The notes under the pieces were generated by a model. That model was not told where the DNA came from and ran no database searches. It saw nothing but the letters and a program-made list of their open reading frames with translations. Of a stretch of DNA of 64,000 nt, positions 39,637 to 53,811 are shown piece after piece. Every line of letters starts with the position of its first letter. Within the stretch, counting starts at the first letter, position 1. A program made the position numbers and the translations under genes. The DNA is taken from assembly GCA_944322945.1 (NCBI GenBank), contig CALUQN010000008.1:1-64000 (forward strand), read 5' to 3'. This DNA comes from Candidatus Gastranaerophilales bacterium (GTDB taxonomy: Bacteria; Cyanobacteriota; Vampirovibrionia; Gastranaerophilales; Gastranaerophilaceae).

Positions 39637-42600
39637 TTATTTGATATTTTGTTTTGAGAGTGCCATAGTCTGCTCCGGCGGTAATTTTTTTATAACGGTT
39701 TGTACTTTTGAAGGATTGTAATTATTGTGTCCGAGAGCCCATCTAAAGCCGAATGAGAGAGCAACGCCGTTTCTGCCGCCGTTTCTAATCATTGTTTGGA
39801 AATAACCTGTTAAAGAGTCTTTCCAAGTTCTTTGTACGCCGATACCATATTCAACATAGGGTCTAATGCTCATAGATGGAAGTACAATGTTATTTGCTGC
39901 AAATTTTGTATCATTCATAATGTTCCAAACCATACCGGCGAAAGCATACGGCTGCCAGCCATTTTCAAGGTTAGCTGCAAATTTAATATTAGGATGAATT
40001 TGCAGCGTGTGCAGCGGGTCGCTGTTAATGCCGACACCTGCTGCATTTGTATAATCAAATGTATTTACAAATGTATAAGACATCAGCATTGATGGCTGGA
40101 GAATATATTTACCGTTTTTAAATTCAAAGTTATAACCGGTTTTAGAAGCCACGCCTGACATAAGCATAGCAAAAGTTTCATTTCCGTACATAGTGCTGGA
40201 ATCACCTACACTGGCGCCGGCAGAAGCAGTAAGTGCAGTGAAGAAGTTATCTTTGTAGAATGTTTGCGTAGCCCCTAATACTCCGCCGTTTTGGTTAGTA
40301 GAAACACCGGAAAAATCTTGATAAGAACCGTTATATCCGACGTACGCCGTTGTTACTGTACCCCAGCCGTTTTTGAGATTAATATACTCGCTGTCACCGC
40401 CTACAAGTGAACCGTAAGAAATAACATCAACAGATGGACCGTTGCTTAAACCTATATTTTCAAAGTTTGCATATGGCTGGAACCAGATTCCGCTGTCTTT
40501 CATTGCAGATTGTACAGGAGAACCGGCTGTTCCAACAATAGCATATCTGTCAGCCAGATGCGCAGAAAGTCTTTGTGCTGACGGCAGCATAGAGAAATAA
40601 TCAGAGTGTTTGAATGCGTAGTTGAAGGTTTCGTTCATTGCCGCAAAACCACCGGCTTGCGCCGCAACAGGACTTGCCAGTACCGCAGGGTTAAACGCAT
40701 CCGGTGATGAAGGCGAAGCTCCGCCGCCCCTTGTGAATACAAAATATCCTAAATCATCTCTGTTTTCGTACTCAAGAGAGTATTTGTATATAGGTGCGAA
40801 TGCCGTTATCTGAGTATCTTTGGATAATTCTTCCGGTCCGACGTATTTTACGTTATCTTTAAATCCTGCGTATGCAAACGGAATTTCTACCTTCTGAGCC
40901 GTTGTGTCAGATATCAGATTAAGCTTGTCAACGTTAATAAACGCGTCGGCATTAGCAATAACAGTATTTTCCGGAAGTCTGTCCATAATTTCGTTTTTAA
41001 GGTCTACATCAGCGTTTAAGTTGAAGCTGCCGTTAATAGTGACGGATTTTGCAATTTGTTCCTGTACTACACCGTTAACCAGGTTTAAAGTTCCTGAATC
41101 TATCAGGAAATTACTGGTTGCAAAATGGTTATTGCCGGAAAGATTCAACGTGACATTATCCATTTTGACATCTGAATTTTTAATCTGATTAGACAGATAA
41201 ACTTCGCCGGAGGTGTCACCGGTTATGGAAACACTGTAGCCGTTATCACCGTTAATTTTATCGTTAATATAAGTTTTTCCGTTGTTAACCGTATTCAACG
41301 TAAGTTTTGAGCCGGTCAAATAGACAGCTTCGTCATCATTGGCGGTTTTGTTGCCTTTTATGACGGTATTACCGTTATCAGCAGTAAGAGTTACATCCGA
41401 TGCCGAATAAATTGCTGCGCCGTGTGAACCTGCAGCCTTGTTATCGACAAGGTTTGTGTTTGTCAGGGTAATTTGAGCGTCTTTGTCAGTCGAATTAATA
41501 ACAGAACCTTGTTCGCTCTGGGCATTTTTAAGTTCGGTATTAGAAATATTCAGTTCAACGCCGCTGCCTGTTTCAAAACCAGAATAGTTATTAAAATCTA
41601 TAGTTGATTTTCTTTCGCCGTTTCCTGACTGTACGCCGTTAACAGAAAGAGAGCCTTCTGCTGTTTTACCGATGTTATCGCTGACGTCATATTCATTGCT
41701 GGCGGCATCAAAATTAAACTGACGTTCTTCATCTGTTTTAAATTGGTTAACAAGTGCAAGGGTATCCCCCATGCTTACAGAATCTTCGCTTTCACGGAAG
41801 GTTACGTTTGTAATTCCGATACTGTCATTGGTTGTGTTTGTAGTGGTGAGTCCGAGTTTGCCGTAGTAGTTAACTATAGAATCTTTTGCAAAGTATTTGT
41901 CGTCCCAGTTGTTAATTGCCTTGATGTCAGTATTTGCGATTACGTGGGTTGTTTTTATAAGATATTCCGTGTTATTCAAATCCTGTTCAAGTTGTTTTGA
42001 TATAGCCAGTTGAATAGCGTCAGACGGCGCGTCAAGGATTTGGATTTTGTAGTCCTCAGGATTTTCAGGAATATCATCAAGATTAATAGAGCCGAGAATA
42101 TTCAAGTTATCAAGGGTTAATCTGCCCTGTGAATTTTCGCCAACGATGAATTTATCTGCTGTTTTTGCTGACAAGTCAATGTCAATAGAGAACAATCCTT
42201 CATTAATCATTTTGCCGATATGATAATCCGATGTCTGTCCGTCGTTTGTGGAAATTGAAGCATCGTTCATATCGAGAGTACCATCAATACCGGCGCCTTT
42301 AGCGAGAGTTAAGTTTTTATTTGCCGTAGTAGTACCGTCACCGGTAATGACTTTTTCAAGAGTTCCGTCAAGAACCAAGTCAGCTTCATTGTTGACAGAG
42401 CCTGTAATATTTTCTGCGGAAGTTGTTAATTTACCGGATTGGACGTCAACGTTGTTATCAATCAAAGCGTTGTTAACGACTTCTCCTTTAATATTTGTAG
42501 TACCGCCGCCGGTGATATTATAAGCTAAATTGCCGCCGGTAAAGTTAATTACCCCGTCATTTGCAACATCGGAAGAAATAGACTCTACTGCAGTCGTGAC

Positions 42601-45600
42601 AACGCCGTCAATCCCTATAGCAAGAGCGCTTTGGATATAACTATTGTCATTAATTGTAAGGCTGCCATTTTCAACATTAATATCAGCTTGTTCAATACGA
42701 GAATTGTTGGTGAGCAGCACATCTGCGCCGCCTGTAATGTTAGTAATACCGGAACCTTTAATACCGCTGTTTAAAACGACTTTGCCGCCGGTCATGTTGA
42801 TATTGCCGTCGTTGTTAATGGCTGTAAGGTTGTTGGAAGCCGCAATAGTGACGTTGTTAAGATTTGCGGCGGCGTCTTTATCCGTAATATTAATCAAGGC
42901 GCCATCAGCAAAGTTGAGGTTTTGGAATTTAACATTTGATATATTTAAAGTTGTGTTATTGTTGTCGAGAACAAAGCCTGTAAAGCTGTTCAAATCAATA
43001 GTTGAAATATTGCCCTTATTGTCAGCAGCACCGGCGACAGAGAATGTACCTTGTGCTGTGGAGCCGATATTATCCGAAAGTTCGTAAGTTTGGTCAGCAT
43101 TTGTTGTTGTAAAACTTCTGTCAGCTTTATCAAGCTGATTTACAAGCATTAAGGTATCGCCCTGACTTTCCTCTTCAGAGGATAGGTTAACAGTAATTTC
43201 ATTGAGTTTAAGGCTGTCATTTTTAGTAACCAGTGAATGGAGTTCAAGTCTGCCTCTGATTTCGTTATTTTGATAAGTAATATTATATAAATCATCCCAT
43301 TTGCTGTGAGCGTTTATATCATCAGTATTAAGCAGAATTTTTTCATAGCCTAGAACAACGTCGCTGACTTCAAGCTGTGATGCGAGAGTTTCTGACAAAG
43401 CGAGCTGGGTATTGCTGTTTGGAGACTTAATGATTTGGACAATGTAAGAGTCATCTTTATCAACACCTTCAAGGCTGCCGGTCATATTAAACGCAGAGAG
43501 TACAATTGTTCCGCTTGAATTTTCGCCGACAGTAATGGTATCGGCTTTTTGTTGACTGAGGTCTATATCCAGAGCATAAGAAGCATCTGCGGTAGTATTT
43601 AATTCATTAATATTATAATTATCAAGAGAGCCGTTATTGAGATTAATGCTGCCGCCTGTGACGTTAAGAGTTGTATTGCTGTCGGCGAAAGTATTTTCGG
43701 CAAATGTCAGGTTACCTTTAGATAAAGTGGCATCAGCATTAATTACAGAGCCGTTGATAACAGTATTGTGGTTGCCGTCGATTGTCAGGTCGAATTTTTC
43801 ATCGCCTGTAATATTCCCGTCGATAACCGCGTCTTTAAGATGAACAGTACCAGAGGCATCCGTGACGTGTATAATTTCATCTGTGCCGGTTAATCTTGTA
43901 CTGTCGATTGAGATGTCTGAATTTTCACCTACTTCAAATCCTTGATGTTTGTTAAAGTTAATAGTGGATATATTGCTGCCTGAATTTGTTCCAAAAATTT
44001 CAAAGCCGCCGGCAGCGATTTTGCCGATGTCATCCGTAACCTGATAAACTTCGGAGGCATTGTTTGAAGAGAATGTTTTTCCGTCGATATTTTCAGCCTG
44101 CGCAACGAGTTTGAGGGTATCGCCTAAAGTTTCCAGTATGGTTGTAGTGTTTTCCCAGACTTCGTTGATTTTAAAATTAATACTGTCATTGAGTGTATCT
44201 TTGGTTACAAGTGTTAAACTGCTTTCCAAAGAGCCTTTTCTTTCTCTGCTGTAGTAGATATGAGAGAAGGAAGTATTTTCTTGGATTTCGTCTTTTTCGA
44301 TGCGGGAAATATCGCGGAAAGAAAGGTTTTTCAAATTATCGGCGAGCGCGAGTTGGATACTGTCATCAGCCGCCTTGAGAATTTGTAGTGTAAAATCATT
44401 AGATTCGCCGAGTTCGTTAAAGTAATTTATATCATTGATAGTAATGACGCCTTTAGAGCCGCTTCCGACAGAAATAGTGTCAGATGTTGCGTCAGCGAGA
44501 TTAATATCGAGAATATATTTAGTATCAGCGCCGGAGTTGAGATTTGAGAAGATGTAATTTTCACCGGTAGTATTGTTTGCGAGGGTGATTGTTCCGGCTT
44601 CAGCAGTGAGCGAGCTGGCGTTTTGGAAAGTATTTTGTGCCATAGAGAGCGTTCCTGCCTTGAGATTGACGTTTGCGCCCTCAATTGTTCCTGTGAAATC
44701 TGCGTTGCCGTTGATATTAATATTTTGAGCGTTGTTTGCGTAAATATTACCGTCTATTTGGACGTTATTGAGATTAACCTCTGCAGTTTGATTAACAATA
44801 TTAATAACGGTGTTATCTTTAGCGTTGGTGAGTTTTGTGTCCGTAATATTCAGAGCGCTGTCATTTGTAAGGTTGAATGCTTTTTTGCCGTTGAAATCTA
44901 TGGTTGAGATTGATTCAGTACCGTTAAGTCCGGTGATATTGAGCGTGCCTGCAGCGACATCAGAGATATCAGCTGATGTGATGTAGTTTGAATTATTGTC
45001 AAAGACGAAATTTCTGACCTGGTTCAGCGTAGATTTTGCGATTAAGTCAAGCCCGTCAAATGTTTGATCAATGAGGTATTTGATACTGTCATTGGTAGTA
45101 TCGGTTGTAGTGAGGGCGAAACCTTCATTCTGGTGGTAGATAACGTTATTATAAACAGTATCGCCGAGGTTTGCTACGAGATCAGTTTGGGTGTTGATAT
45201 TTTCGCTGAGTGCGAGTTGAAGAGCGTCATCCTTTGCGTGAATGATTTGGATGGTTTTATTTTCATCGGAAGTGCCGAGGACGTTAAGCCCGTCGATTAC
45301 GACAGTACCGGTGGAGCCGGCGCCGACAGTAAAGTTATCAGCTGTGGAGTTTTCCAGATCAAAGTCGATTTTGTATTTGGCACTAGCAGCAGATGTGAGT
45401 TTGTTGAAGTCGTAGTCAAAAGCTGCGTTGTTAGAGGTATCAATGTTGACTTTGTCAGCGGTGACTTTCATATTGTCAATTTGGTTGAATATTTTGATAG
45501 TGCCGGAACTGTCGCCAGTGAGGACAGCGGTTTGTGTGCCGTTGTCACCTCTTATAATATCGTGCATTTCTATAGTGCCGCCGGTATTTGCGTCAAGAGT

Positions 45601-48600
45601 GAGGGTAATATTGTAAGAATCAATATAGATAGCTTCATACTCTTTGGTGCTTTCGTCTCCGTTATTAATTTTGTAATTGCCTTTGAATATAGATTCACCG
45701 CCATCTTTAGCAATGATTGAAAGCTTATTTAAACTATCATAATATATGGCACCGCCATGAGTGGCTGAGGATTTACCGTCAACATAGTTGTTGATAAAGC
45801 TGGAATTCACAATACCATTGGAGAATTTAGCAGTAGAGAACGTAGCAAGAGCTCCGCCTCTTGCTACGTCTTTTGAAAGTGCATAGTTATTTTCAAAAGT
45901 TACGTTTTCAAAGTTTTCTATTGTTACGGCACTTCGAAAATTGATAGCACCGCCATGGGACTCCCCGCTAGCTTCGGAGTAGTTGTTGGTGAAAGTTACA
46001 TCTTCAAAGTTTTTGATGCTAGTTTTCTCTGCTCGCAAAACCGAGCCACCGACATCTGTAATTCCTTTGGCATAATTATTTTCAAAAGTTACTCCTTCAA
46101 AGTTATCAATTTTACTGTCATAAAAGAATAATGTACCTCCATATACAAAGTTACCCTCTGCATGGTTACCGGTAAAACGAGAATTAGTAAAGTCGGATAT
46201 AGAACCATTAGCATATACAATACCACCGCCGCCGCCAAGGGTAGAGGTATTATTTGATTTTACATAGTTATTTTCAAATACAAGATTGTCTATTTTGTCT
46301 ATAATCGCAGAGCCGGTTATAGATAATGCAGCACCTCCCACACTAGTAGAAGTTGTTTCTATATAATTCCCTTTAAATACAGAATCCGTTAAACTTTCAA
46401 TAGAACCGCCGTTTTTATGAAGTCCTGCACCTTCGCTGAGGCTTCCTCCTTTGATATAGTTACCGTCAAATGTGAGGTTTGACATTTGACCAATGGTTCC
46501 GGTTAAATATACCGCGCCGCCTCGTATAGCATTATTGGCACTAGCGTCAATAAAGTTGCCGGTGAAGGTTGAATCAGTGATGGAGTCGATTGATGAGGTT
46601 GAATACAATGCTCCGCCATGTTTATCTCCGGCAGTTGAATTTGTTGCCTGAATGCCATTCCCGGTAAAGGTCAAGCCGGACAGAGATTGCGCCTTTCCTG
46701 CTGATAAGGATATAGCGCCGCCATAGGCTTTTTGGTTGTATGTATCACTAAGAACTCTGTTATTAATAAATTCTGTATTAGTGATATCCCCTACGTCCGC
46801 CGTTTCAACTCGTAGTGCACCTCCATGAATGACTGCGGTATTCCCATTAAAAGCAGAGTCATAGATATTAATGACGGACGGGTTGTCAGAGAGAGATATC
46901 GCGCCACCGCCAGTTGATGCATGGTTGTTGTTGAATGTGGTATTCCGTAGTTCTTTTAGACTTCCGAGTTCTAGCATAATAGCGCCGCCCAAACCTCTAT
47001 AATTGCTATTGTCTGTATTTGCCGAGTTATTTTCAAAGAGGGAATCTTTGATTACATCAATTACGCAATTAGAGGTTAAACGTATAGCGCCGCCGTAGGC
47101 ATTTGTTTCGCCGGTTGCGGAATTCCCGATGAATTTTGAATTTTCAATATTTTTGATGTGTGCGCTGTTTGAAAGGTGTAGAGCGCCTTCTGCCGAGCCC
47201 ATTATGGATGTTGAAGTATTGTTTTTAAACACAGAATCTTTTATATTTGCGATGTAGGCGTTTGCTCCTGACAGGCGGAGCGCGGCAGCATTTGCTTGCC
47301 CTGTAGAATTGTTCAGGGTTACGGTGTTGTTTTCAAATACGCTGTTGATAATTCCGCCTTCTCCTGTCAATTCTGAACCTATAGTGCCATCGCTTACTAC
47401 AATGGCGGCACCGCGTGCTGATGGGGTGAAATTCAGCGAATCTGTGTTTGTTAATATTGTTGAGTTGTTTTTAAACTCTGAATTAATAATCTGTGAGATG
47501 GTTCCTTTTTCAATATGAATAACACTTGTATTGCTGTCATCAGTGCCTTTAAATGAAGCGGTGTTGTCAATGAATGACACATTTTCCAGTCCTCCGGACA
47601 CGCGACCTTCCTCATCAATTGTTCCGATTGAGTTAGTGGCATTTGTAGACTTGATGAAGAAATCGCTCGTATTTTTAATAGTTACATTGGAGAGATTCAT
47701 TGTAGTGCCGGCATTTACAAGATTAAAGCCTGAAGCACCGGACATATCAATAGTTGACTTAGCTCCGGATTCATCATCAGCAACGCCTAATATGTTCAAA
47801 TTGCCGGACGGTGTATAGCCCAGATCTTTGATTTCCGGCGAGTGTTCTATTCCGATTTCACTCGGAACTTTGTAGATGTCGTTTGCAGTTCTGAAACGGA
47901 AGAATTTTTCTTCTCCGCCGCTGTTATACTGATTCCATGCTTTTAAAAGGTTTCCGTCTTCCGATTGTTCGCTATCCCAGTTTGTAATGACATCTGTGAA
48001 CTGAATACTGTCGTTTTTAGATTCAGTTTGCGCTAGCTCAATTTTACCGGTTACATTTCCTGTCTGATAGATGTGTTTGTATACGTCGTCAAACCAGACA
48101 TCAGCATCAATGTCACCATCATAGCGCTCTTTAAGCATCGCTTTGTTGAATATACCGTCGCCGACAATTTGGAGCTGCGCGCCTGTGCCGCCGGCAAGAA
48201 TTTGTATTGGAGCGTAATCAGTCAGTACATCAGGCGCTGGTGTGGCTGTTATGTTAAGCTCACTTGCTGTGACCTTGAAAATAGCATCTGAAAGCGGGTC
48301 GGTCAGGTTGATTTTGTCAGCTTTTAACGTTTGAAGGTTTACGTTGAAGCTGAAATCGCCTTCCCCTGTTGCTTTGTTGACATCGTAAGTTCTGATAACA
48401 GCATTTGCCGGATTTTCCGGTCTGTCAGTGATTAATAATCCATTGTTCAGATTAAGTGTGCCGTCAATAGATGAGGTTGAACTGCTTAATTGAAGAGCAC
48501 CATTAATATAAGTTGTGCCGTTGCCTGCAATATTCTTTTTCAAATCGCCTGAAAGATACAAAGAACCGTTGTTAATCACATTATTTTTTAGCAGTGATAT

Positions 48601-51600
48601 GTTTGATGTAAGTTTTCCGCCTGCATTAACAACAACCTTATTATTAATATATTTCAATGTCGTGACATCCCCGGCAATAGTGACAGTTCTGTCATTGGAG
48701 GCACCTTTTATATCATAGTTAATCGTCCCGTCACCGAGGATTAAGTTAGAGCCGGTATTCATAGTAACAGACGAAGACTGTATATCATCAGCGTCAATTG
48801 TGAGGGTTGCGCGGTCGTATAACTGTAGGTTTGTTGTTGAGATTATTGCCTCTGATATTACGCTTGAATCTGTCTGAATTCGGGTCGTACCATTGCCGCT
48901 CACGGAGTTTGTGATAGTTCCGCCGGTGAAGGTGACTGTACCTGTGGATTCTGTCCTGACCGCGCTGTCTCCGATGTCATCTGCATCGGTAATTAATGTA
49001 CCTTTGATATCTATACCGCCTGCTACATCAATAAGTCCTTCGTTTGTCGTAGTGTTGCTGTATATAGACACTCTGCCGTCGCCTGTTACGTTTTGTTTAA
49101 AGGTGTATTTAGATTCAAATTGTAATGTTCCGCCTTTATCTACATAAACGTCATCCTGAATATCCCCGCCTGTTTTGACGGCAAATGTCGCCCCGTTGCG
49201 TATTTTAATATCCTGAGCTATTACAGCCTGAAGATATGAAGTTCCGTTTGCAAATTCTATATACCCGCTGCCTGTTATCGGATTTTTGACGTATTGATTT
49301 GAGATAGTGCCGCCGCCGGTAGTAATTGAGATGACGCCGTCGTTAACTACTTTTGCTGCACGAATAGAATTTGCGCTTACACTCGTCTTTAATACAGCAC
49401 CTTCAATTATATTCAAAACTTCAGACTGGATATATGACTTCATATCTACATCTCCGAGGATATTAACTTCCCCGCCGATTATATAGCGTCCCGAATTCAT
49501 AGTTCCGCCGCTGAGGTTGATAGTGCCGTTGTTTTGCATGTTGGCTGACCAGTTGAGGAAACCTGCATTGTCTGTTGAAACAGAGGCGCCTTCTGCTATA
49601 GACCATTTGCCTGAAATGTTTGCATCAATATTGACATCTCCGGTGACGTTTGTTTGCGCGTTGATGCCGTTTTGGGTCACGGTTCCGCCTGTCAGAATAA
49701 GTGTGGCATTGTTGTTTTGCGTGGTAATACTGCTTGACAGAAGATTGTCTGCGTTTGTCGTGAGAGTTCCGCCGTCTTTAATATTAATGTTGGAAGATAA
49801 TACAGCATTGTTTATAACATCCCCGATTATATTAAGAGAGCCTTCCCCGTCGCCGCAAGTGGATATATCATAGTTTAACGCGCCTGTACCAAGGTTGAGA
49901 GCTGCATAGGTGTTCCCAATGTTAACCTTAGAATGCAGGTTGTCCGCATTTATCTTTAATGTTCCTGATAATATCTCAACCAAATCAGCGGTCAATATGC
50001 TCTCATTGCCAAGAGTCAATGTCGGTCCTGAACCTTGACTTTGACCGGAAAGAGTAACTGTTTTCGCAGTAATGTCGCCGGAATCCAGTGTTATAGCACC
50101 GCCGACAACGTTTCCGAAAGTTATTGTATCCTGTATGATAGAGGCGCCGTTAGTCAGGTTGAGCGTAACGTTATTGCCCGTTGAGAAAGCACCTGTTCCG
50201 ATTATGCTTGTGTTGGTATTAACCTCGGAATTATCAGTAATAGTGAGCATTCCTTTGTTCACTATCCCGTTTGCGGCTTCTGAATTTATGTTAACATTTC
50301 CTGACAGTGTGCCATTTGCGTCCGCAGAAGATATATTCAGTACGGCACCATCTGTCTGCGCCGTGTTGGTAATATTTACATCTTTATATGTAAGCGTTCC
50401 GCCCTGAACCTCAAGCAGACTGTGTCCGCCCGCATCAATAGTTGACATCTTGCCGTTTTTGGTATCTCTTACGCCGGCAACTGTGTATGAGCCATCCGTC
50501 ATTACCCCGCCGTCAGCTGTCAAGGTGTAGACATCGTCCGCACTTCCTGCAGTAAAACTCCTCGTACCTGTCAACTGTTCCGCAAGTATTCGCAGCGTGT
50601 CCCCCATTGATTCCGTCAAAATTTCATCAGTGGATGTCCCTGTATAGTATTCAATACTGTCTGCCGTTGTTCTGTCTTTATCGGTTATGGCTGTACGAAT
50701 ATACTCATCTATATAATCCTGATATGTGTGGCTTTCGTACTCATCGCTCCAATTTGACGCCGCTTTTACCTCGTCATTAATAACATAAGCTTCCCCGTCT
50801 TCCACACGGCTGGTAAACTCTTGTAACAACTCATCTGTCAAACCGATAGAAATAGTGTTCGGCGACTTCAATATCTGTATTATCTTTGAACCTTCAGTAG
50901 GTGCTTTCCCGAGGACGTTAATGCTGTCTATATAAATAATTCCGCTTGAACCTTCGCCAAGCGTCAGAGTGTCTGCCGTTCCGTCAGCAAAGTTCGCATC
51001 AATGCTGAAAGTCGCACCTTGTCCTGCGGTTAACGACAAAAAGTCATAGTTTGTATTTGTCCCGTCTGCAAAATCAATGTTCGCACCGGATAAAGCTTCT
51101 ATTTCTGCGTTTAAAATCTGGTTGTAAATAGAAATCTTTCCGCTGCCGTCACCGGTAAACAGCACATTATAACCCTCGACACCGTTTATGATATCATTCA
51201 TCAAAATCTGTCCGCCGCCGCGTGTTTCAAGGGTTAAGGTCGCTCTGTCCGAGGATACATATATCGCCTGGTTTTCTTTTTTACCGTTGTTTATGATATA
51301 GTTGCCGGTAAATTCTGTCAACTTGCCGTCTGTCGCGGATATCTTCAGGCTTGAATCTGTATAAATTGCACCGCCAAGGGCTTGACTGCTATCTGATGAT
51401 GCGTAGTTATCCGTGAATATGCTGTTGTTAATGTTTTCAATAAGGTTATAATTATAAATCGCGCCGCCTAGTGCATCTCCGCTGCCCGATGATATGTAGT
51501 TGCCCTCAAAAATGCTGTCTTTTATAATTGTTATTTCGCCATTGCCGTTATATATAACACCGCCTAAAACATCTCCGGAACCTGACACTCCGTAGTTGCC

Positions 51601-52583
51601 GATAAACATTGACGAATCAATTGCATTTATTTTCCCGTCATTTGCAAGAACTGCACCTTCAATAATGCTTGTCTCGCCGATAACACTGTTTGATAGAAAA
51701 TCTGACGAGAGTTTGCCCAGTACGCCTGCCTCTGCAACTTCAAGCATACCGCCGTTTACTGTCGCTGAATCCGTCCGGACTGCGTTTGCTATAAATTCCG
51801 AGGTAATGTTATTTATATTTGACAAATCTTTTATAAAAGCGCCGTATACTGTTTTGTTATTAGTGACAACATCTATGTTGTTTCCAATGAAGCTTGACGT
51901 GATATTCTTGATTGTTCCGCCGACTTCGGAAATTATGGCAGAATATCTGTAGTTGTCATCGTTCGTAACTTCAATGGAATTTCCTTTGAATATGCTTGAT
52001 ATGTTGTCTATGGTTCCGCGTGCGGATATTATATTTTTGATATCCTGCTCAACGTAAATTTCATTTATTTGAGCAAGAGTTTCGCCCATACCGTTTTGTA
52101 TAGGTGCTATAGCACTGTCAGGGTTGTATTTCAACGTTAATGCCGCATCAGCTGCGTTTTCTGTCTCAACGAGTTTTACTCCATTTTCATCCTTTGCCCA
52201 CTTGTAATATTTTTCAGCTGTACCTTCTCCGTAAACAGGTTGTTTAAACCCTATTTCATAATAATGTACATTAGCATCAACAGTATTAGGATTGTAAATT
52301 TTAATTACATTAGGAGCTAAATTTTCGGTATCAGCAGGCTGAATTTCAACGAGCGTATATTCGCTTGCCGGATATACGCTTTGTGTATCCGGAATCAATG
52401 TCCCTGCATTATGAAGTTTATCTAAAATCGGAGCAGGCGCGTTGCTTTCACTTGCGAATGCTGCTGATGGTATTGTTAAAGCTATACATCCGGCAAAAAG
52501 CGCTGTCAGTAAGGGTTTTGCCCCCCCCCCCTAATGGCGGAATTGCTCTCGTTGTGCAGTTTTTTATTTAGTGTACCTGACAT
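39637..52583 (-). CDS. Giant type V autotransporter adhesin, frameshifted at a poly-G tract (OFF state)
   Basis: Outer-membrane autotransporter, 4315 residues when in frame. ATG 52583 reads MSGTLNKKLHNESNSAIR, then meets 11 G and stops after GGGQNPY. With 12 (or 9) G the reading passes into GGGAKPLLTALFAGCIAL and TIPSAAFA, a signal peptide with an AFA/SE cleavage site, and on to the rest without a stop. As the sequence stands, only a TTG at 52398, after the signal peptide, could open the long frame. The passenger holds Chlamydia Pmp-like GGAI/FxxN repeats (about 52060-51290 and 47650-45700) and six diverged modules with STI[DN] cores. The C-terminal barrel (about 40640-39637) ends GVALSFGFRWALG plus a 30-residue tail. 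Confidence 0.9.
52521..52531. repeat. Homopolymer C11/G11 in the autotransporter signal-peptide region
   Basis: Eleven C on the plus strand (G on the coding strand), 53 bases after the start codon begins. Tracts of this kind change length by slipped-strand pairing and switch genes ON and OFF. Confidence 0.85.
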
Positions 52584-52647
52584 TTAAAACGGCTCTTTTT
52601 CTTCAGCTTCCATAATACGAATATAAAATTTATTCATTCATGTCTGT

Positions 52648-52676
52648 ATCATATCATAGAATTTGTATAATTTCAA
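52648..52676 (-). promoter_or_regulatory. Sigma70-type promoter of the autotransporter gene
   Basis: On the minus strand TTGAAA (52676-52671), a 17-base spacer and TATGAT (52653-52648). Start expected near 52641, giving a 5' leader of about 58 bases to the ATG at 52583. This supports the upstream start and thus the frameshift reading. Confidence 0.65.
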
Positions 52677-52812: not shown

Positions 52813-53811
52813 TTATTTTTTCGATTTAATTTCTTCTACAATGTCTGCTATTTCTGTTGAAACATCCTTTTTTGATGTGATTTGTCTGGCAACGTGCTCT
52901 GCAAATTCTGATTTTTTGAACTCGTGCAGACCTTTCTCTTTAAACAATTCTTCCAAAAGCTTTGCCATAGGAATATTTTGTTTCAGTGTTTCAAGTTCAA
53001 TTTGCGAAAAGTTTTTAAAGTCATCATTCAGAGTCCGCTGCACTAACTCCGGAGGCAGCAAATCTTCAAACTCACCGCTTTTGAGCAAATGTATTTTGTC
53101 AAATTCCCGCAGTTTTGGTTTTATCTCTTCCAGATTTGACTCCGCGTCTTTATCTAACAGTATATAAACAGGCAGCTTCAATGTCTCATACAATTTGTAG
53201 AATAATTTTACGACCTGATTTTTGCCGCCGGCCGATATCAGATATGTTCCGGTTTTGTCAAAATCATACCCGCACAACCTTGCAAATACCGGCAGCAAAA
53301 TTTCTTCTGTTATCCCTTCCGTAATTATTACACGTTCTATCGGATATAGCTGCGATTTTTCACTTCTTACCAGAGTTATATCAGCCTCTGTTGACAATGA
53401 TTTAAGCCATTGTAAATTCTTTGGGATGTCAGTTTTAAATAACTTTATCAGCGCGTCATAATTTATTCTGTTTTTTAAAAGCTCTTGAGTGTTTGTATCT
53501 AATAAAAAAATACTGTTTTCATAATCATACAAACGCTGATTAATCAAAAAATTATCAGTCAGGTTAAAGCCTAGCTGTACAAGCGAGTAATTTATTATTT
53601 CCTCGGCATAATCCCGTAATTCAATATAAGAAACGTTATCTAGCTCTCTTTTTTTGAATTTAGGCTGGATTAGATTATTACTCAAAATATCCTTGAAAAC
53701 TCTGGTGTATTTAGTTTCGGGATGTTTAAACCGGGTAAGCCTGTCAGCTGAAATTATCAGCTGTTCTTCGCTCATTGGTTTAATTTTTAGACTTTTCGAT
53801 ACATTATCCAT
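52813..53811 (-). CDS. TOPRIM-domain (OLD-nuclease-like) protein without an ATPase
   Basis: Probable nuclease or nucleic-acid enzyme. The C-terminal half shows a TOPRIM fold: acidic motif ERVIITEGITEEILLPVFARL and the metal-binding LPVYILLDKDAES, like OLD-family proteins, but the N-terminal ABC ATPase of OLD is absent. The first ~160 residues are helical and unknown (LRDYAEEIINYSLVQLGFN). 332 residues. No ribosome site; TGT-TACAAA lies seven bases before the ATG. It diverges from the cysteine-peptidase-like gene. It could be a stand-alone relative, or a partner of a separate ATPase not seen here. Confidence 0.78.
   Translation of the reverse strand: MDNVSKSLKIKPMSEEQLIISADRLTRFKHPETKYTRVFKDILSNNLIQPKFKKRELDNVSYIELRDYAEEIINYSLVQLGFNLTDNFLINQRLYDYENSIFLLDTNTQELLKNRINYDALIKLFKTDIPKNLQWLKSLSTEADITLVRSEKSQLYPIERVIITEGITEEILLPVFARLCGYDFDKTGTYLISAGGKNQVVKLFYKLYETLKLPVYILLDKDAESNLEEIKPKLREFDKIHLLKSGEFEDLLPPELVQRTLNDDFKNFSQIELETLKQNIPMAKLLEELFKEKGLHEFKKSEFAEHVARQITSKKDVSTEIADIVEEIKSKK

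Follow-up and report, generated by a model that had tools for sequence, protein, structure and literature searches.

The window (the whole stretch of DNA analysed here, 64 kb in length) encodes on its minus strand a body frame that is intact and open for 4293 codons, down to position 39637, and is preceded by a short leader and a run of 11 G. The locus comprises the following features, in the direction of transcription.

52648..52676, minus strand: promoter-like TTGAAA-17-TATGAT, a consensus match only
52584..52613, minus strand: nine-codon frame MEAEEKEPF-stop, with ATG at 52613 and TAA directly before ATG 52583, in the same frame
52532..52583, minus strand: leader opening with ATG, 17 codons plus one base, without a good Shine-Dalgarno sequence
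52521..52531, minus strand: G11 tract, proposed to act as the switch; at 12 or 9 G, leader and body would be joined
52506..52508, minus strand: TGA that closes the leader frame at the present (putatively OFF) length, by sequence reading
52453..52518, minus strand: signal peptide KPLLTALFAGCIALTIPSAAFA in the body frame, with no start codon before it; homologous signal peptides occur in paralogs and orthologs
40645..52452, minus strand: passenger, a long repetitive extracellular region without a Pfam match
39637..40644, minus strand: C-terminal autotransporter beta-barrel with the C-terminal tail and stop, identified by TIGR01414, predicted structure and Foldseek

This layout is read directly from the sequence. 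The 17 codons that begin with ATG 52583 (MSGTLNKKLHNESNSAI) are followed by the 11 G, past which the leader frame reads R-G-G-G-Q-N-P-Y-stop, the stop being eight codons on. The leader and body frames are fused if the tract consists of 12 G or 9 G, so that the assembled length of 11 G is out of frame; with 12 G, the fused protein has 4315 residues. Every other run of G or C in the window is 6 or shorter. An internal start in the body frame was considered and rejected: a TAG abuts the tract, there is no ATG, GTG or TTG ahead of the signal peptide, and the first such codon in this frame is TTG 52398. The first-pass annotation, made from the sequence alone, had reported the ATG, the 17 codons, the 11 G and the stop eight codons on, all of which held exactly; its further claims, namely a long open frame that opens with a signal peptide but lacks an ATG, the joining of the two frames by one additional G or the loss of two, and a protein of 4315 residues (in the 12-G joined form), held as well. 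The promoter that it had placed upstream is present as a sequence pair at 52676-52648. It had not mentioned the missing Shine-Dalgarno sequence or the adjoining nine-codon frame. The start at ATG 52583 is weak in this respect, unlike those of most other loci of the poly-G leader set described below, and the ATGGAA of the nine-codon frame matches the putative start of an ortholog (L155); the start codon at this locus is inferred from the sequence alone. The gene directly upstream of the leader (52813-53811) encodes an OLD-like TOPRIM domain protein (PF20469, 2.4e-14); proteins of this class are often linked to phage defence.

A Pfam scan of the full-length body protein gave no match, and the barrel was found only when this region was scanned alone. 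The TIGR01414 profile (autotransporter barrel) matches the last 335 residues at 1.3e-9, and the AlphaFold model of the C-terminal domain, built on an 18-sequence alignment, is a barrel with pLDDT of 78. A Foldseek search started with the predicted barrel identifies EspP, AIDA-I and BrkA as the best solved relatives, and also matches the NalP barrel (1uyn, 5.8e-13). The protein is thus confirmed as an autotransporter, as the first-pass annotation had called it, with a true barrel at the C-terminal end of the body, and it meets the classical (type Va) criterion of a C-terminal 12-strand translocator barrel, with the fold predicted by a model. The other criterion of this type, a signal peptide and a long passenger on one chain, is also met, the body frame having been read by eye without a signal-peptide predictor. 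The genome from which the window comes contains 12 copies of the autotransporter barrel domain, and the named relatives are from Candidatus Gastranaerophilales metagenome assemblies. Barrels 43-44% identical to that of the window are found in L081 and L082, from assemblies labelled Alphaproteobacteria and proteobacterium, for which gene transfer or misbinning are possible explanations.

The same genome (G000, 2.12 Mb) contains 15 distinct G runs of at least 9, 10 runs of at least 10 and 7 runs of at least 11, compared to 1.5, 0.30 and 0.06, respectively, under first-order expectations scaled from the window; a chance origin is rejected on the counts for the two longer classes. Six of these runs, including that of the window, lie between a short leader and the signal peptide of an autotransporter. 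The other tracts of interest in this genome are listed below by contig.

C2: leader, 10 G and autotransporter signal peptide
C5: leader, 11 G and autotransporter signal peptide
C17: leader, 10 G and autotransporter signal peptide
C21: leader, 11 G and autotransporter signal peptide, in frame
C26: leader, 9 G and autotransporter signal peptide
C31: leader-tract unit with 13 G before a prepilin
C26: leader-tract unit with 13 G before an acyltransferase (Acyl_transf_3, 6e-20)
C18: tract of 11 G inside an AlgX-like gene, with the frame open throughout
G000:C17:14872-14883 (L037): tract of 12 G at the 3' end of a family 2 glycosyltransferase gene; the other frame runs on for 67 codons

The tract in the glycosyltransferase gene might possibly switch the C-terminus of the protein rather than its expression. 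Other runs of 9-10 G (an RNase P RNA-like sequence at C1:703 and interspersed repeats on C15, C29 and at C1:216 kb) are outside leaders and were judged unrelated. One autotransporter paralog (C15:36.7 kb) has no tract, and its leader, MYKKPKNLDKSAFSV (NLDKSAF), continues in frame into the signal peptide; the tract-bearing copy on C21 reads MYKTSKNLDKSAFLT-GGGG. Given that the tractless paralog carries the same leader fused in frame, the leader is coding and forms part of the protein. Two autotransporters of this genome (L057 and L058) look damaged, the one on C11 by an in-frame TAG shortly behind the signal peptide and the one on C16 by a mid-gene frame break.

The adhesin is also encoded by two relatives, in which the first 731 residues are 68% identical and the bodies are open and intact. 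In one of these (L155, genome G384), the tract consists of 12 G compared to 11 G in the window; read from an upstream ATG (MEKLDSK...), it is in frame, but a second ATG, preceded by a strong Shine-Dalgarno sequence, puts it out of frame; a TTGAAA-16-TATAAT pair upstream is the counterpart of the promoter-like element of the window. In the other, the contig begins at the tract. Among the further autotransporters of relatives, those with 9 G are in frame (L066, L068 and L076), and of those with 11 G one is in frame (L069) and two are out of frame (L070 and L072). The first-pass annotation had interpreted the tract as a poly-G switch at the signal peptide, to be refuted if all relatives had 12 or 9 G or lacked a tract. 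The interpretation is supported, in that five further autotransporters of the same genome share the layout, as do relatives, with in-frame and out-of-frame lengths mixed; the refuting observation was not made, the lengths ranging from 9 to 17 G and falling into all three frame classes. The genus is represented by four genomes, one per species, so that no second strain of the species of the window could be compared.

The distribution of such units was assessed by counting the pattern AGGA-spacer-ATG-leader-G9, with the reversed pattern as the control, in a phylum-wide set that includes 130 genomes of the family and 162 other genomes of the phylum for comparison. In the family, the pattern has 2070 matches versus 97 for the control; it is present in 78 of the 130 genomes, 49 of which have at least 10 matches, with a maximum of 94 per genome. 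In the rest of the phylum, it is nearly absent (at most 3 matches in each genome). Some loci were counted twice where two AGGA motifs fit; an order-wide sample of 383 genomes, with counts inflated by tract length, agrees with the family count. Both the recurrence of the unit and its restriction to this lineage are directly observed. Among the bodies sampled behind the tracts, prepilins predominate, followed by autotransporters, acyltransferases, FkbM methyltransferases and other surface-glycan enzymes. The prepilin methylation motif PF07963 was detected in 15 of 41 sampled bodies, and many more show FTLAEVLITLGIIGVV by motif; in one genome (G036), 57 of the 59 poly-G leader loci are prepilins by the same kind of evidence. 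The single locus seen in the first-pass annotation belongs to a family-wide set of such putative switches, most of which precede prepilins.

Tract lengths differ between close homologs. Comparison of paralogs within a genome that are about 90% or more identical over flanks of 60 bp upstream and 60 or 100 bp downstream reveals tracts of 12, 9 and 11 G in G179, 10 and 9 in G108, 12 and 10 in G033, 13 and 12 in G047, and 10 and 12 in G036; in two other near-identical pairs, the lengths are equal. With G036 left aside, 73 loci divide into 21 that are in frame, 29 that need one additional G and 23 that need two, i.e., about one third each, in keeping with a tract length that is random with regard to frame; the count was automatic, and a few of its start assignments, including that of L155, are doubtful. 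In G036 (L167-L206), 49 of the 59 tracts are exactly 10 G, each one G short of frame, and the 6 loci that are in frame all have 11 G; among 10-G loci of other genomes, 13 of 15 likewise need one additional G. The uniformity in G036 is unexplained: either most prepilins are kept OFF with few ON, or slippage is at equilibrium at 10 G. Contigs often end at or near poly-G leaders (C17, C34 and C39 of G042; C23, C31 and C41 of G014; C10 and C17 of G036; L156), and one tract of G047 (C5:156-217) contains an N. Such breaks would be expected if reads disagree on the length or if the leaders are repeated, and are no more than suggestive.

Three criteria for phase variation by simple sequence repeats are fulfilled at this locus and its homologs: there is a long 5' homopolymer beyond chance expectation, a change in its length restores or breaks an intact frame, and homologs with conserved flanks differ in length. 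Variation of the length within a clonal population or species, and expression that follows it, are predictions. We consider it highly probable that the locus is a translational phase-variation switch that operates by slipped-strand mispairing at the poly-G tract, an inference made without reads, a second strain or expression data. Under this hypothesis, the ribosome would start at the short leader and read through the tract, and replication slippage would alter the number of G, placing leader and body in frame at about one third of the lengths (12 or 9, with 11 being OFF); slippage in cells and the expression states are both inferred. In the ON state, the leader and the polyglycine would lengthen the signal peptide at its front and be removed on export, and the mature adhesin would be unaffected by the number of glycines because the leader is cut off. 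The same may apply to prepilins: as inferred from known processing, in both prepilins and autotransporters the tract is upstream of the cleavage site, so that the mature protein would be the same at any glycine number. Confining the switch to a segment that is removed from the protein would be a tidy solution to the problem of a hypermutable sequence within a gene. The same leader-polyG unit, placed before autotransporters, many prepilins and surface-glycan enzymes, would constitute a family-wide set in Gastranaerophilales with a putative role in surface variation directed against phage, host or competitors; this role is inferred. There is no support for the idea that the long tracts result from a loss of mismatch repair: full-length MutS1 was found in 14 of 15 genomes tested, and MutL likewise in 14 of 15, the genome of the window having both. 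Given that these proteins are present, slippage should be slowed, and any hypermutability occurs despite mismatch repair. The presence of mismatch repair is one of the points that count against the switch, along with the lack of a clear Shine-Dalgarno sequence at this locus, the two possible ATGs of L155, only one of which is in frame, and the uniformity of G036, which exceeds the expectation for free slippage.

Three alternative explanations deserve attention. Under programmed slippage, the tract would be constant, and RNA polymerase or the ribosome would slip to yield a fixed minority of full-length protein, which would make the tract a dosage device rather than a heritable switch. This possibility is retained mainly because of the uniformity in G036, where 49 of 59 loci share the same length and frame, and the similar bias of 10-G loci elsewhere. 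It appears very unlikely, however, given that lengths vary from 9 to 17 across loci in three frame classes, that in-frame copies exist and that near-identical paralogs differ by 1-3 G; moreover, the switching tracts of Campylobacter likewise cluster at a single length (9 G, 53%; 10 G, 26%; PMC6321876).

An error of sequencing or assembly, with a true tract of 12 or 9 G, an intact gene and no switching, would be in line with the error-prone nature of homopolymers, the several contigs that end at or near tracts and the tract that holds an N. Nevertheless, it would leave unexplained the tracts at corresponding positions in hundreds of genes, their near absence elsewhere in the phylum and the systematic out-of-frame lengths, and a length off by one would still leave the tract itself; we regard this explanation as most improbable. 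Even less plausible is decay, i.e., that the gene is a dying pseudogene that lost its start through a frameshift. The weak start signals, the stop just upstream of the leader and the two damaged autotransporters of the same genome could be cited in its favor, but the 4293-codon body is intact, the bodies of the orthologs are open too, and the frameshift would have occurred exactly in a tract that is common to paralogs and relatives.

Poly-G phase variation has been studied mainly in pathogens. The putative slipped-strand switch resembles the poly-G/C systems of Campylobacter, Helicobacter and Neisseria in having a 5' G homopolymer, about 9-13 long, in surface genes, with ON/OFF control by frame shift and a repertoire rich in surface functions. 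The differences are that Gastranaerophilales are an uncultured lineage of a different phylum, that the tract is housed in a short leader of its own, ahead of the export signal, and that MutS1 and MutL are present in the Gastranaerophilales genome. With respect to scale, a Gastranaerophilales genome has up to 94 pattern matches; strains of Campylobacter have 5-81 phase-variable genes each (PMC6321876), and in Neisseria meningitidis variation is seen in 115 genes (PMC5084427). The scale is thus in the top range, and the focus on prepilins is unusual. NalP and AutA of Neisseria are phase-variable type V autotransporters that carry a simple repeat early in the coding sequence. The protein of the window is similar in both respects but has about 4300 residues, with the tract before the core of the signal peptide, and its likeness to NalP is shown in the barrel fold only. 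In the gonococcus, pilin variation comes mainly from gene conversion with silent cassettes as donors; the outcome, variable surface pili, would be alike, whereas Gastranaerophilales have dozens of separate prepilin genes, each with its own poly-G leader.

The first-pass annotation had stated that slipped-strand phase variation of surface proteins is known in other bacteria and would be new at the signal peptide of such an adhesin in this lineage. The mechanism, slipped-strand ON/OFF switching, is indeed already known; the novelty lies in the lineage, in the scale and in the repeated use before dozens of prepilins. A search of the open-access literature, with subscription papers mostly outside its scope, returned nothing on the subject for this lineage, whether under phase variation, homopolymers, autotransporters or pilins, so that novelty in the lineage holds within the literature searched. 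If the hypothesis is correct, random surface switching would be a major part of how a commensal gut lineage lives, on a scale comparable to or above that of Campylobacter, and would probably be directed against phages, host immunity or rivals; mixed tract lengths would be expected at poly-G leader loci in existing gut metagenomes. In a bolder reading, dozens of prepilin paralogs per cell would be one G away from expression with few ON at once, these genes would form one of the largest, perhaps the largest, phase-variable surface gene sets known for a single mechanism, and replication slippage alone would generate combinatorial pilus variation in a gut lineage that is not known as a pathogen and has kept mismatch repair. 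We consider this bolder reading somewhat less likely than not.

In adhesin and prepilin genes, peptides such as SPLAGEVRWG, LTPNPSPKGRGE or CHPELVSGS seem to derive from interspersed palindromic repeats inserted in frame (L033:2010-2400, L114-L142), which are reminiscent of the Rickettsia palindromic elements.
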